A model generated the notes under the pieces. It did not search any database. It worked only from the letters and a program-made list of their open reading frames with translations, and was not told where the DNA came from. Below are positions 17,522 to 28,874 of a DNA stretch of 64,000 nt, piece after piece. Numbering within the stretch: position 1 is the first letter of the stretch; the number at the start of each line of letters is the position of its first letter. The stretch comes from Shinella zoogloeoides (GTDB lineage Bacteria; Pseudomonadota; Alphaproteobacteria; Rhizobiales; Rhizobiaceae). The stretch covers positions 1-64,000 of the forward strand of contig NZ_QNUJ01000011.1 in the NCBI RefSeq assembly GCF_003574625.1. Reading direction: 5' to 3'. The position numbers were made by a program, and so were the translations under genes.

Positions 17522-18025
17522 ATGGACATTGAATTTCTGAAGGCCGGCAACCCAAATAGAATCGCTACGGTATACACAAGCTTTCTGCTCCCTAGCGAAA
17601 TAGCCAAAATTCGAGAACAATCAAAAACCCATACGGCCGCCATGTATAACCTTGGATTGCAACACTACAGGTTTGCCATCTCTCTCGGAAGACCACATTG
17701 GAGGCAAAAAATATCGCGATTATACTATGCTAGCTACAATGTTTCAAAATCTATACGATTTAACCATGACGGAAATCATTCTACAGACGTAAAAGATCAT
17801 ACAAAAGTTGGGTCTTTGCCAAACGGATTTCCCAATAAGTCAACATATGAAAATGAATTGACAACATTGAGAGAAGATAGAAATTCGTGCGACTATGATC
17901 ATATCATAAAATCTAAAGACCTCGTGAAAAGTACGGCAGAGTATGTCTCCATCGTTACCTCTTTCATGCGAGATGCTCACGACTACCTTTCTAATCGCGG
18001 AATTACTTTAGGAAAAAAAATATGA
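17522..18025 (+). CDS. HEPN-like protein of AT-rich islet
   Basis: The 167-residue protein was not matched to a named family, but the pattern is HEPN-like. A helix RQKISRLYYASYNVSKSIRF (about 61-80) is followed by a loop with DHTKVG. A second conserved helix LTTLREDRNSCDYDH ends in Arg120-x6-His127, which fits the R-x4-6-H motif of HEPN ribonucleases. HEPN proteins are common toxins, immunity effectors or nucleotidyltransferase partners. The gene's stop overlaps the next gene's start as ATGA, so the pair is translationally coupled. A TTGACA hexamer at 17418 may be its promoter -35. Codon use is AT-rich, unlike the neighbours. The HEPN assignment is inference from motif and helix pattern. Confidence 0.6.
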   Translation: MDIEFLKAGNPNRIATVYTSFLLPSEIAKIREQSKTHTAAMYNLGLQHYRFAISLGRPHWRQKISRLYYASYNVSKSIRFNHDGNHSTDVKDHTKVGSLPNGFPNKSTYENELTTLREDRNSCDYDHIIKSKDLVKSTAEYVSIVTSFMRDAHDYLSNRGITLGKKI

Positions 18026-19515
18026 ACGCTCAAACGGCGGTAAGAGATGTTCATGCCCGATTTGAAGGCCGTACAGGGCTTTCAGGACTTGAATTTGACG
18101 ACATTGAAAAAGGAAACCGTCTCGTAAGGATAATATATGTCTCGTCAGTGACGGATCGCCTTTATACAATTTTAAACCAATGTATTTCCGAAATTAATAG
18201 TGAAGAAGAATACCACGTCACATTAAAACAGAGAGCCAGAGACTTTATCATTAACGGCCCCGAGTCTAGACTTTTATTAAAAGTTTTGAGCGAAAGCCAA
18301 AACATTAATCAACATAGCTTTTCAGATGATTTTTTTGATAGATATACGCCATCGGTGACGGGCGCGGAAGCACAAATTATTTCGGCCGCCAACCATATAG
18401 TCACCGGAAGGCGTGGGGCCGGAAAATCCATGCTTCTCCTCTATTGCTTCAGGAGGAGACAGAGAGAAAACCTCCCCAACGCTTGGATTGATTTGCAAAT
18501 GTTTTCCGGAAGGATAGATGAGCAAGCGGTATCAGACGCCATAACAGAAATTCTTTATAGGATAGACTTCCCGGCTAACGCTTCAGACGAAGTTGTGGAA
18601 TTGCGACATCGTTTTGAATCCGGCAATTTAACAATTTCTGAACTAAGAAAATTTACACCGAAGTTGCGCCGTCTATTCGAAAAAGTCTCATCTAATACAA
18701 ATCTATTCATCTACCTTGACGATCTTCATGTCTTTCCTGCTGCCTATCAGCATTCATTGATGGACATTCTATACTCGATTGCTCGCGGAAATCGCGTATA
18801 TCTGAAAATTTCAGCAATCGAAAACCTTGTCAAAACATACGACAATGCCACACAATCTGGTTTGCAAATTCCCCAAGATGCGCAAAAACTCGGACTAGAC
18901 TATAATCTGACAAATCCGGATAAAGCTGCAAAGCACATAGAGGCGATTCTCGACTCGCATGCTGCATATTCGGGCCTTCCATCCATTCGTCGCTTATGCT
19001 CAAGCGCCGATGTCCTTCCCCGTTTGACGTGGGTAAGCGCAGGGGTGCCACGAGATGGCATGAACCTCTTTTCGCAATCGATGCTTAAAGCAGCATCAGA
19101 AAATAAGAAACGCGTGACAGTTTCGAATGTAAACATGGCCGCCTCTGACAATCTTAGTATAAAGATAAGAGACTTACAAACAGATGCGAGCGAATCAGCT
19201 ATACGCCTTAATGACCTTCTCGAAAAGATAAGGAATTTTTGCGTTATAGAAAACAAAACTAATGCTTTTCTCGTAGAAATAAAATCCGGAGAGGACCATT
19301 TCAAGGACATCATGAGTCTTGTTCAATTAAGACTTCTCCATGTAATATCCGAAGGAATTACCCCAAAAGAAGCCGGAACGAAATTTATGGCATTTATTCT
19401 TGATTACGGCCTCTATACGGGCGTGAGAGCTGCGGCGAGTGTTGAGCTATTCAACAAGCAAACGGCACCTGTTTCGGCGAAGGATCTAAGAAAACTGAAA
19501 ATATTGAGGGCCTAA
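18022..19515 (+). CDS. P-loop ATPase of AT-rich islet
   Basis: The 497-residue protein has a helical N-terminal region (1-110), then a P-loop NTPase domain with Walker A GRRGAGKS at residues 129-136 and Walker B LFIYLDD at 228-234. A possible sensor strand (RVYLKISAIE) and a helical lid follow, and the C-terminal 120 residues look like winged-helix or other helical domains. This is the layout of AAA/STAND-type ATPases found in defence and regulatory modules; the exact family was not recognised. It begins inside the stop codon of the HEPN-like gene. It could regulate, sense for, or be neutralised by that protein; which of these holds cannot be told from sequence. Confidence 0.7.
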   Translation: MNAQTAVRDVHARFEGRTGLSGLEFDDIEKGNRLVRIIYVSSVTDRLYTILNQCISEINSEEEYHVTLKQRARDFIINGPESRLLLKVLSESQNINQHSFSDDFFDRYTPSVTGAEAQIISAANHIVTGRRGAGKSMLLLYCFRRRQRENLPNAWIDLQMFSGRIDEQAVSDAITEILYRIDFPANASDEVVELRHRFESGNLTISELRKFTPKLRRLFEKVSSNTNLFIYLDDLHVFPAAYQHSLMDILYSIARGNRVYLKISAIENLVKTYDNATQSGLQIPQDAQKLGLDYNLTNPDKAAKHIEAILDSHAAYSGLPSIRRLCSSADVLPRLTWVSAGVPRDGMNLFSQSMLKAASENKKRVTVSNVNMAASDNLSIKIRDLQTDASESAIRLNDLLEKIRNFCVIENKTNAFLVEIKSGEDHFKDIMSLVQLRLLHVISEGITPKEAGTKFMAFILDYGLYTGVRAAASVELFNKQTAPVSAKDLRKLKILRA

Positions 19516-25404: not shown

Positions 25405-26073
25405 ATGCATACCAGAGCCGCAACCACGCTTTACGATTACTGGACGCGCCAGCGCGGCGAACGCGCCGTGCCATTGCGGAGCACCATCGAACCCGCCGAC
25501 ATCGCGGCGATCCTGCCGGATGTCTTCATGCTGGAGTATGGACGACTGCATGCGCCGCGCTTTCGCCTCGCCGGCACGCGCATGTGCGCCCAGTTCGCCC
25601 GCGAGCTGAAGGGCATGGATTTCGATGCGCTGTTTGCCCCGGACCAACGCAGCCGCGTGGCCCGCATGGCGGAAAACGTCATGGCCGAGGCCATGCCCGC
25701 GGTCATGCGGATCCGGCTCGTCGACGGCGCGCTGGAAAATACCGAGGCGGAAATCGTGCTGCTGCCGCTTGCGACCGCCGGCCGGACGGCCGACCGCATC
25801 ATCGGCACCTTCGCCCCCCTGCCCGGCCAGCGCCAGCCGCTCTCGGCCTTCCGCTATGCCACGCTCGATGCGCTTTCGGTGATCGACCCGGCGCGCAAGG
25901 ACGATCTGGCCGGCAACCGCCCGCCGATCCCCATGCCGACATCCGTCATGGCCATGCGTCCGGCCGGCTTCGGCCAGAAGATCAGCCGGGTCATGCACCT
26001 GCGCATTTTCGAAGGCGGGCGGAAGGACGGCGGATTGGCGGAAACGCAACCAATATCGCCCAAAGGTTGTTGA
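25405..26073 (+). CDS. PAS domain protein (PAS_5-type)
   Basis: The 222-residue protein fits the short alphaproteobacterial PAS_5 family: TLYDYWTRQRGER, PADIAAILPDVFMLEYG and FRLAGTRMCAQFARELKGMDF. It has no output domain, so it is likely a sensory or adaptor protein; ligand and partner are unknown. It is followed 101 bases later by a PilZ gene, a pairing that suggests a motility or cell-surface signalling role (inference). Confidence 0.8.
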   Translation: MHTRAATTLYDYWTRQRGERAVPLRSTIEPADIAAILPDVFMLEYGRLHAPRFRLAGTRMCAQFARELKGMDFDALFAPDQRSRVARMAENVMAEAMPAVMRIRLVDGALENTEAEIVLLPLATAGRTADRIIGTFAPLPGQRQPLSAFRYATLDALSVIDPARKDDLAGNRPPIPMPTSVMAMRPAGFGQKISRVMHLRIFEGGRKDGGLAETQPISPKGC

Positions 26074-26174: not shown

Positions 26175-26786
26175 ATGTACTCTTTCCAGCAAGCATCGCC
26201 GGCAACCAGAGCAGCGCAACCCGACCAGCGCAACTTCCAGCGCGTCTCGGTGAACCTGCCCGGCCGCCTGATGCTCGCCAGCCATGACGAATTCGACTGC
26301 ACCGCCCTCGACATGTCGCCGGGCGACGCCAGCTTCGTCTGCAGCGCGCGCCCGCGGATGGGCGAGCGCATCATCGCCTATATCGACCATGTCGGCCGCA
26401 TCGAGGGCTCCGTCGCGATCCTTCGCGAAGACGGCTTCGTCATCCAGTTGAACGCGACGGACCGCAAGCGGGAAAAGCTCGCGGCCCAGCTCACCTGGAT
26501 CGCCAACCGGCACGAGCTCGGCCTGCCGGAAGACCGCCGCCACGACCGCCTCACGCCGCGCAACACGCGCACGGACCTGACGCTCGACGACGGCCGGCGC
26601 TATCCCTGCCGCATCATCGACCTTTCGCTTTCGGGCGCCGCCGTCGATATCGACGTCCGCCCCGCCCTCGGCACGCCGGTCCAGCTCGGCAACATGAAGG
26701 GGCGAGTCGTGCGCCACTTCCAGGAAGGCGTCGCCATCGAGTTCTCGTCCGTCCAGTCGCGGGAAGCCCTCACGGCATTCCTGTAG
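26175..26786 (+). CDS. Tandem PilZ domain protein
   Basis: The 203-residue protein contains two PilZ-like barrels (about 22-95 and 120-200). Each begins with an Arg-rich segment (QRNFQRVSVNLPGRL and RRHDRLTPRNTRTDL), and the second has the (D/N)xSxxG-like DLSLSGAAVDI. The second domain keeps the RxxxR-like and DxSxxG motifs associated with cyclic-di-GMP binding; the first (DMSPGDASF) is degenerate. It is probably a c-di-GMP effector for motility or polysaccharide. A terminator follows. Confidence 0.85.
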   Translation: MYSFQQASPATRAAQPDQRNFQRVSVNLPGRLMLASHDEFDCTALDMSPGDASFVCSARPRMGERIIAYIDHVGRIEGSVAILREDGFVIQLNATDRKREKLAAQLTWIANRHELGLPEDRRHDRLTPRNTRTDLTLDDGRRYPCRIIDLSLSGAAVDIDVRPALGTPVQLGNMKGRVVRHFQEGVAIEFSSVQSREALTAFL

Positions 26787-26846: not shown

Positions 26847-27115
26847 GTTTCAGCCCGGATCGAGGCACATTCTCGAAAAAGAAAATCAAAAAAAATTCTG
26901 CCGCGCGCGTCCATCATCGGGAAAAACGCAGCGATGCAAGTACGCATTATGCCCGACGACCATGTGGTACCAGCGCTCATCCGCGTGGAAATTCCGGCTT
27001 CCAATAAGCCGAACCCAGCCCAATATCACCTGCTTAAATCGAAAAACGATTATGAATCAGCAGCATGGCGGAAGATGAAAGCCCGCAACCGCGAGGGTAT
27101 TCGCTACAATTTTAA
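26847..27115. other. Gene-free stretch before BTLCP gene
   Basis: The gap between the PilZ and BTLCP genes (26787-27268) has no convincing gene. A frame from ATG 26934 to 27191 is open for 85 codons, but it lacks a ribosome site and ends in low-complexity Asn/Gln/Phe residues translated from an AT-rich repeat. The part after 27050 is unusually AT-rich and holds the phased repeats described separately. Confidence 0.4.
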
Positions 27116-27154
27116 TCAAATTCGCTTCAAATACAGTTCAAATCAATCTCAAAT
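27116..27154 (+). promoter_or_regulatory. Four TCAAAT boxes with exact 11-bp period
   Basis: TCAAAT begins at 27116, 27127, 27138 and 27149, exactly one helical turn apart; TACAAT at 27105 may be a degenerate fifth. The block ends about 20 bases before possible -10 hexamers TATGCT (27174) or TATCTT (27179) and 114 bases before the BTLCP start codon. Direct repeats at 11 bp are typical of OmpR/PhoB-family response regulators, so an activator site is inferred. Confidence 0.6.
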
Positions 27155-27268
27155 TCTATTCTTGTTTTATGCTTATGCTATCTTGATTTGAACTAAGTTC
27201 TACTTCGGCTTTTCGCGCAAGCTCAAAACATAGCTGTCATTGTCGCCTCATCGAACGGGGACATAGCA

Positions 27269-27868
27269 ATGACAAAAATCATCAAGACAGGGACGTTTGC
27301 ATTCCTCCTTTCCCTGGTTGCGGCGCAGGCCGCCATGGCGCTGCCGGCCAATACGCCGCTTGCAGGCGCGACCAACCAGCCGATCGGCCACTATGAATTC
27401 TGCAAGGTCAATGCCAGCGAATGCGGCCCGAACGGCCGTGACGACGGCCCGCTCAAGCTGACGCAGGAAAACTGGAAGACGATCCTCAACGTCAACTACG
27501 CCGCCAACACCGAATTCGCGCCGATGACCGACATGGAAATCTACGGCGTCGAGGAGAAGTGGGCCTATCCGGAATATGCCGCCGACTGCGAGGACTATGT
27601 CCTCGTCAAGCGCAAGCGCCTGATGGAAGCCGGCATCTCGCCCGCGAACCTCCTGATCACCGTCGTCCTCCAGCCGAACGGCGAAGGCCACGCGGTCCTG
27701 ACCGTGCGCACCGACCGCGGCGACTTCGTGCTCGACAACATGCGCAACAAGGTCCTGCTCTGGTCGGAGACCGAATACCGCTTCCTCAAGCGCCAGTCGT
27801 CGGCCAATGCCGGCAAGTGGGTCAAGCTGCAGGATGGCCGCGCCGAAGCTGTCGGTAGCGTCAGGTAA
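27269..27868 (+). CDS. Transglutaminase-like cysteine peptidase (BTLCP)
   Basis: The 199-residue exported protein has a signal peptide (about 1-24, AAMA-LP) and the bacterial transglutaminase-like cysteine peptidase fold. The triad Cys107 (ADCEDYV), His141 (GEGHAVLTV) and Asp156 (VLDNM) is intact. LapG, a relative, cleaves surface adhesins in a c-di-GMP circuit, but stand-alone rhizobial members are uncharacterised; the nearby PilZ gene is suggestive only. The phased TCAAAT repeats upstream suggest response-regulator control. Confidence 0.88.
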   Translation: MTKIIKTGTFAFLLSLVAAQAAMALPANTPLAGATNQPIGHYEFCKVNASECGPNGRDDGPLKLTQENWKTILNVNYAANTEFAPMTDMEIYGVEEKWAYPEYAADCEDYVLVKRKRLMEAGISPANLLITVVLQPNGEGHAVLTVRTDRGDFVLDNMRNKVLLWSETEYRFLKRQSSANAGKWVKLQDGRAEAVGSVR

Positions 27869-28112: not shown

Positions 28113-28874
28113 ATGGCTGCGATGGCAACCGGCAACGAGGACCATGCCCCGCTCATCTCCAATCGCCTGCTGACGCGCCTGACCGTCGGCGTCGCGGTTC
28201 TCGCCGGGCTGACGCTCGCCATCAGCGTCGCCGGCCGCGCATTGGGCGAGCGCATCGCGCTTGCCGGCCATACCGAAAGCGCTGAGGCCGTGGATGTCGT
28301 GATCGGCCAGGACCAGATCCGCCTTCCCGCCAATACGATCCGCTTCGAGGAGCAGCGCCGGCCGGGCCGCACGGAGCGCGTCGATCTCTACCTCACCTGG
28401 CCGGAGATGAATGGCTATTCCAACGGCGAGCGCATCCGCTTCAACGATGCGACGCGGCCCGAGAGCCTGATTTTCCTCAATCTTTCGCAAAGCACCATGT
28501 CGCGCGACATGTCCGGCCGGCTGGCGCCGATCTACAGCCACCTGTTCGACGACCGGACGGAATCCGGTCCGGCCGGCCTGACGATGCAGCCGCTGCGGGA
28601 GAATTCCGGCTATGGCGGCGAGGTGTTCTTCACCGGGACGCTGCCCGACGGCTCCGACTATGCGGTGCGCTGCATGATGCCGGCGGACGAATCGCAATCG
28701 ACCAGCGCGGATTGCCAGCGCGATATCCACATCGGCCGCGATCTTTCTGTGCTTTACCGTTTTTCGAGCAGACTTTTGCCGCAGTGGCAGGCGATGGAGG
28801 CGCGCGTACGCGATTATCTCGCCGCATCCCTCGTCGAAAACGGCCGCCCTGCCTCGACCACCCGCACCCGATAA
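28113..28874 (+). CDS. Hypothetical membrane-anchored protein
   Basis: The 253-residue protein has a single N-terminal membrane segment (about 22-43, LTVGVAVLAGLTLAISVAG) after a short cytoplasmic tail, so the rest is probably periplasmic. The mature part includes RLPANTIRFEEQRRPGRTERVDLYLTWPEM and two Cys (VRCMMP, ADCQRD) that could form a disulfide. No family recognised. A TTAACCAT sequence near 28046, resembling a CtrA half-site, precedes the gene. The D-Ala-D-Ala carboxypeptidase gene follows 120 bases later. Confidence 0.7.
   Translation: MAAMATGNEDHAPLISNRLLTRLTVGVAVLAGLTLAISVAGRALGERIALAGHTESAEAVDVVIGQDQIRLPANTIRFEEQRRPGRTERVDLYLTWPEMNGYSNGERIRFNDATRPESLIFLNLSQSTMSRDMSGRLAPIYSHLFDDRTESGPAGLTMQPLRENSGYGGEVFFTGTLPDGSDYAVRCMMPADESQSTSADCQRDIHIGRDLSVLYRFSSRLLPQWQAMEARVRDYLAASLVENGRPASTTRTR

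Follow-up and report, generated by a model that had tools for sequence, protein, structure and literature searches.

An 11-bp phased, AT-rich array in the promoter of an HvyA/SMc00998-type protease gene of Shinella and its relatives: a possible docking platform for MucR

The protease HvyA of Caulobacter sets when cells carry a capsule, and with it their phage sensitivity, and hvyA is reported to be under translational control by an unnamed factor (PMC4241560). The S. meliloti gene SMc00998 partly substitutes for hvyA in Caulobacter. It is repressed by MucR, has a CtrA-binding site in its promoter and peaks in G1; loss of mucR brought promoter activity to 314% in S. meliloti, and in Caulobacter lacking mucR1/2 it reached 568% (PMC4241560). 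A CtrA ChIP signal was also reported at the hvyA-like gene NGR_c12490 of S. fredii (PMC4241560). The available part of that paper mentions neither an array nor a leader hairpin.

MucR and its relative Ros are associated with AT-rich, T-repeated DNA. MucR1 has many targets, which are AT-rich, and in S. fredii more of it is recruited where a motif with T repeats of 10-11 bp is present in more copies; Ros requires two Ts 11 bp apart and an internal G (PMC8857273). Oligomers of MucR-family proteins have been proposed to wrap AT-rich DNA (PMC11662661). The Ml/MucR proteins use an AAATA core in which the T-A step is needed, and A-tracts are not bound by the Ml proteins (PMC5693944).

The array described here resembles several known kinds of site without coinciding with any of them. 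With MucR/Ros targets it shares AT-rich DNA in a GC-rich genome, a periodicity of about 11 bp and a promoter location, but it is far more regular and longer, is depleted in the flexible MucR/Ros motif and has fewer TpA steps. With the tandem sites of the OmpR/PhoB family (CtrA, CenR) it shares the 11-bp start-to-start spacing and the position upstream of the core promoter, but the half-site is another one, there are 4-11 units, and the genome is without a second tandem site. Phased A-tract DNA upstream of promoters has in common with it in-phase AnTn tracts and a predicted bend, whereas the period of the array is 10.9-11 rather than 10.5 and each unit has a conserved C. In the literature that we searched, largely open-access, we found no description of such an array.

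We analyzed a stretch of 64,000 nucleotides of Shinella zoogloeoides DNA (the window). The features that matter here are as follows.

25405-26073, plus strand: MopJ-like PAS_5 gene, SMc01000-like
26175-26786, plus strand: PilZ gene, SMc00999-like
27104-27202, plus strand: 11-bp phased array of nine consecutive units, from EM fit, profile match and autocorrelation
27105-27110, plus strand: degenerate box TACAAT, which is TCAAAT in several relatives
27116-27154, plus strand: four exact TCAAAT boxes inside the array, starting at 27116, 27127, 27138 and 27149
27183-27192, minus strand: inverted copy TTGATTTGAA of 27137-27146, within the array and kept in 18 of 23 genus promoters
27199-27204, plus strand: putative -35, TCTACT (TATACT, TTTTAC or TTGACT in relatives), from alignments
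27223-27228, plus strand: tentative putative -10, TCAAAA (ATAAAA in some relatives), from alignments
27235-27274, plus strand: conserved 5' leader hairpin (predicted fold) in which TGTCATTG pairs with CAATGACA across the start codon
27257-27261, plus strand: GGGGA ribosome site, at which the inner stem of the leader hairpin lies
27269-27868, plus strand: BTLCP gene (Peptidase_C93, PF06035), 199 aa, SMc00998 orthologue as judged by synteny

The gene downstream of the array appears to be the counterpart of SMc00998. An initial annotation of this DNA had named it a BTLCP peptidase gene, and its match to PF06035 agrees. SMc01000 is the S. meliloti MopJ (PMC4432633) and SMc00999 is PilZ-like (PMC4414408); because the neighbors of the BTLCP gene are MopJ and PilZ, we take it, via locus-tag order, as the orthologue of SMc00998. 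A Peptidase_C93 domain next to MopJ and PilZ is what marks the HvyA/SMc00998 type: hvyA and SMc00998 are like the present gene in family, and SMc00998 also in neighborhood. MopJ and PilZ lie upstream of the BTLCP gene in 68 of 80 named loci, including the S. meliloti locus, in which the array has six units. The next gene downstream (28113-28874 of the window) has a weak match to the type IV secretion inhibitor model NF050129, which at 38.7 bits against a cut-off of 500 is probably not meaningful.

The array is larger than the four boxes by which it was recognized. The initial annotation had described four identical TCAAAT hexamers with an 11-bp period, plus a TACAAT at 27105, and all are exactly where it placed them; the interval that it gave, 27116-27154, is too small, as the EM fit returned nine units spanning 27104-27202. 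Chance does not explain the TCAAAT array: a search for a run of three boxes in phase, with a tolerance of up to 3 mismatches, gave four overlapping matches in the window and none in 100 dinucleotide shuffles. GC content is 26% in the array and 64% in the window, and among 5809 segments of 110 bp taken in 11-bp steps, no other was as AT-rich or as 11-periodic as the one at 27105. Fitted to 66 promoters, the repeating 11-bp unit reads nTCAAATTTTA in consensus, which is nearly the palindrome TCRAATTYGA; its third position is C in 62%, and there are 4-11 fitted units per promoter (mean 8.6). We infer that the array is a cis-regulatory element in the promoter of the HvyA/SMc00998-type BTLCP protease gene.

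The phase and composition of the array were conserved in relatives, and the exact hexamer was not. All 21 genomes of the genus carry an orthologue of the gene, and from the genome collection we retained the best 80 of 228 relatives (Shinella, Rhizobium, Agrobacterium, Sinorhizobium and kin, with one labelled Arenimonas MAG). An 80% identity cut reduced 102 promoters to 66 that were non-redundant. One locus with only 83 upstream bases (L071) was excluded from every promoter set, and one with a misplaced start codon (L073) was excluded from the leader sets and kept in the array sets. Four exact in-phase boxes were found in 4 of 23 genus promoters, the own and same-species promoters counted (two of these four had five boxes), at least three in 7, and at least two in 13. 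The majority fraction of array columns was 0.82-0.89, compared to 0.49 in the flank directly upstream (22 genus promoters), and the alignment contains an 11-column gap in one relative (L026). The initial annotation would have given up its proposal if the repeats were lost while the flank was conserved, or if a reading frame ran through them. On the second point, no open frame crosses the array in 21 of 23 genus promoters. Across all 102 promoters there was no such frame in 56, one in 36, two in 9 and three in 1, and we rejected a reading frame through the array.

The 11-bp periodicity extended over several turns. In the 66 promoters, base identity peaked at lags 11, 22, 33 and 44 (z of 29, 23, 19 and 14) and was weaker at lags 21, 32 and 43 (z of 9.7, 6.2 and 3.8), with secondary peaks at lags 5 and 6 (z of 12) and 10 and 12 (z of 8); the shared ancestry of the sequences means that these values, like the register test below, overstate independence. 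For a control stretch 330-205 bp before the gene, z was 1.0 at lag 11, with 3.2 at lag 10. The best Fourier period of the arrays was 10.9.

The array occurs once in its own genome. In 5.38 Mb (27 contigs), the exact pair TCAAAT-N5-TCAAAT was present as three overlapping pairs, all in the array, and looser three-box patterns found one or seven weaker places elsewhere, depending on the pattern. Using a 55-bp sequence profile (R1), we found a single strong match, the array itself (E of 1.3e-8), the best other place having an E of 0.5; a match with an E of 1.3 (C2:223850) lies upstream of a DUF5330 gene. A regulon would have several sites per genome, and here there is one strong site in 5.38 Mb. 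The initial annotation proposed that the peptidase is induced by a two-component system through a high-occupancy site; with a tandem pair and a strong profile match that are both unique, a dedicated two-component regulon for the array is unsupported and unlikely.

Within the genus, 20 of 21 genomes matched the profile at an E of 0.1, and every one of the 30 matches was at a BTLCP gene, including second copies in two genomes; in the remaining genome (G003) the array is visible by eye. The two second copies are 76% identical, lie on a smaller contig and have kept both the array and the leader hairpin. Across the order, at least 54 of 199 genomes matched at an E of 0.01, with 28 candidates per genome scored. 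Of twenty among the best order-wide places, 8 precede a BTLCP gene (by tblastn), 9 precede a DUF5330-type gene and 3 (L149, L167, L168) have another gene or nothing recognized. Of the nine DUF5330-type genes, five were scanned and all hit PF17264, four of them above the cut-off; the other four were assigned from the N-terminus only. Every one of the 21 genus genomes has a DUF5330 gene, which in the own genome (C2:223433-223903) lies about 3 kb from mucR. The DUF5330 promoters of the genus are weakly periodic (z of 4.6 at lag 10 and 3.7 at lag 11). No paper on DUF5330 turned up in our search of the largely open-access literature. Two further elements were seen at these genes. A paralogous BTLCP gene (about 52% identical; L029-L035) has TTAA-N7-TTAA 31-32 bp before the start codon at 7 of 7 loci, and a TTAACGG-type element, which resembles a CtrA half-site, precedes the array by some tens of bases in several BTLCP (L055, L061 and similar) and DUF5330 (L169-L189) promoters.

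The array adjoins the core promoter and is in register with it. A scan of the region for consensus promoters found none, and the likely -35 and -10 come from the alignments of relatives. The array extends to the likely -35, and its phase relative to the core was constant in 43 of 56 promoters with a recognizable core, using a core pattern that was picked after the sequences were seen. The four TCAAAT boxes do not cover the likely -35 but are 45-83 bp upstream of it. The broader idea in the initial annotation, a regulatory element with direct repeats spaced as in OmpR-family sites, is in good standing: the element is conserved, adjoins the core promoter and keeps register with it.

We tentatively favor a reading, from sequence and the published genetics, in which the array is a docking or wrapping platform for MucR on curved, phased DNA and CtrA counteracts it, and we hold it at somewhat below even confidence. 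The nine AT-rich units of 11 bp, whose DNA is predicted to curve, keep helical register with a weak core promoter and would offer MucR, an H-NS-like zinc-finger silencer, a polyvalent site for docking or wrapping. CtrA would be the activator that opposes MucR, and the protease would in this way be produced in G1. The conserved hairpin that encloses the ribosome site and start codon at the 5' end of the mRNA would likely be a second, translational lock. The array, its conservation, periodicity, register and scarcity in the genome, the predicted curvature and the predicted hairpin were computed here; the binding of MucR and the role of the hairpin are what we propose from them. One MucR gene was found in the own genome, and the array has what is described for MucR/Ros targets, AT-rich promoter DNA with 10-11-bp repeats. 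We counted in favor of MucR the genetics of SMc00998, the 10-11-bp T periodicity, the proposed wrapping of AT-rich DNA, the register, the predicted curvature and a modest excess of the core AAATA/TATTT (109 in the arrays vs 82 expected, z of 3.0). We counted against it a depletion of the flexible motif TTxxxGxxxTx10TT (5 vs 17.5 expected in 66 arrays) and, given the needed T-A step and the failure of Ml proteins to bind A-tracts, a deficit of TpA (664 steps vs 936 expected from composition). Strict spacing can be no general need of MucR, because the regular array is alone in its genome despite the many targets of MucR1.

The spacing near 11 (period 10.9; lags 11-44) suits an OmpR-type lattice at least as well as it suits MucR, and the array may instead be a multi-unit, head-to-tail activator site of the OmpR/PhoB family, with degenerate half-sites for CtrA or for a regulator with few targets. 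We regard this as rather unlikely. It draws on the 11-bp lattice, the register with the core promoter and the 64 occurrences of TCA-N8-TCA in the arrays (3.3 expected), a pattern that, read on the opposite strand, formally gives the CenR motif TGA-N8-TGA. The units, however, are near-palindromic and enriched on both strands (TCRAA, 153 vs 48; TTYGA, 118 vs 54), and the tandem TCAAAT pair is nowhere else in the own genome. CenR is a doubtful candidate: its spacing fits on the minus strand, but the 31 Rhodobacter CenR sites listed in the available part of PMC9275681 have no tandem TCAAAT or ATTTGA, and a single ATTTGA in one. The involvement of some response regulator, as the initial annotation had it, has support, CtrA being reported at the orthologue SMc00998, as at the S. 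fredii hvyA-like gene (PMC4241560). None of the 66 promoters has a consensus CtrA box. Exact TTAA-N7-TTAA occurred in 0 of 66 within 500 bp and one-mismatch versions were below expectation (12 vs 20.7), so that an array of consensus CtrA boxes was rejected; the paralogous BTLCP loci, unlike the array promoters, had a perfect box in 7 of 7 examined. With two mismatches allowed, the pattern is matched by all 23 genus arrays. The exact and one-mismatch patterns also found no alternative site in the S. meliloti locus (L060), and the CtrA site reported there is therefore degenerate or elsewhere. Because the pattern misses a reported site, CtrA stays among the candidates, and for the same reason we raised the response-regulator reading and lowered that of MucR.

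Intrinsically curved DNA acting by shape alone, as an aid to RNA polymerase or to a nucleoid protein such as IHF, seems to us improbable. The arrays are enriched in AAATTT (58 vs 30 expected) and depleted in TTTAAA (6 vs 21), and in a wedge model the predicted end-to-end ratio was 0.815, compared to 0.927 for shuffles, and predicted curvature went beyond one standard deviation in 57 of 66 arrays. Against shape alone stand the conservation of a base other than A or T, the C in each unit, and a fitted period of 10.9 rather than 10.5, with lags 22, 33 and 44 exceeding 21, 32 and 43. The IHF consensus was found 5 times (1.4 expected), too few for 66 arrays, and IHF was rejected as the binder. The junctions TTYGA-N-TCRAA can form GANTC, and MucR keeps GANTC sites from being methylated in both Caulobacter and S. 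meliloti (PMC5172544), so the array might belong to the GcrA/CcrM system with MucR as a shield. GANTC is present in 34 of 66 arrays, but its enrichment is weak (44 vs 31 expected, z of 2.4) and it is absent from the own array and from 9 of 13 Shinella arrays listed; we rejected a GANTC array and think this account very improbable. Simple short repeats can originate by slippage. That the array is a functionless product of slippage or chance is hardly credible, given the conservation of its columns over the flank and a periodicity that spans 66 promoters.

The leader of the BTLCP gene is predicted to form a conserved hairpin over the ribosome site and start codon. In 32 non-redundant leaders the mean z relative to shuffles was -3.2, with 31 below -1 and 29 for which at most 5% of shuffles were as stable; shuffling was confined to the sequence before the ribosome site and kept base counts, not dinucleotides. 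Mean z for control leaders was +0.32 for the downstream gene (1 of 26 below -1), -0.13 for MopJ (2 of 13), -0.71 for PilZ (3 of 6) and -2.21 for DacS11 (n=1). The own leader taken as 116 nt was no more stable than shuffles (z of 0.37). Pairing probability was 0.79 at the ribosome site, compared to 0.68 in shuffles, and 0.66 at the start codon, compared to 0.34. In the predicted folds, the start codon pairs upstream with all three of its bases in 16 of 31 leaders and with no base in 7; one locus (L062) was omitted from the pair table.

At an E of 0.5 a covariance model detected the hairpin in the window and, among loci of the genus and kin, in 71 of 81, of which 16 had gone into building the model; it detected none in 7 BTLCP loci of other families. 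Its one hit in the own genome was this leader (E of 1.7e-4; the next at 6.9). The model came from a stem given by hand, so the pair counts lean towards that stem: on the alignment fitted to it, which includes one false minus-strand row (L061), 6 pairs had changes on both sides, compared to 2.0 in shuffles (none of 500 reaching 6), and 14 further pair types were seen, compared to 11.9 (48 of 500 as high). RNAalifold on a plain MAFFT alignment gave no pairs; we think that MAFFT misplaced the stem. Like the leader hairpins that sequester Shine-Dalgarno sequences, for instance RNA thermometers, the leader has predicted, conserved pairing of the ribosome site and, in many of the relatives, of the start codon. 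It differs from them in having no Rfam match near a gathering score, the matches at the leader being far below. The predicted hairpin is a candidate for the translational control reported without a mechanism at hvyA.

A more far-reaching possibility, to which we give a low probability, is an order-wide promoter architecture dedicated to HvyA-type protease and DUF5330 genes, in which some 100 bp of curved DNA, offering a contact in every 11-bp turn and in register with RNA polymerase, is spooled on a circular MucR oligomer and backed by the leader hairpin. If the spool reading were true, the hairpin would account for the unsolved translational control of hvyA-type genes. DUF5330 becomes a candidate member of the same circuit as the protease. 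With a lattice-like silencer site, the statement that MucR binds AT-rich DNA would become a geometry open to test, as units can be removed or moved by half a helical turn.

Elsewhere in the window, positions 17522-19515 hold two AT-rich open reading frames of 167 and 497 aa amid GC-rich sequence. PADLOC models gave no match to either, and the 497-aa frame matches an ORC-CDC6-like ATPase (PF24389, E of 6.9e-13). The two look like an acquired gene pair.
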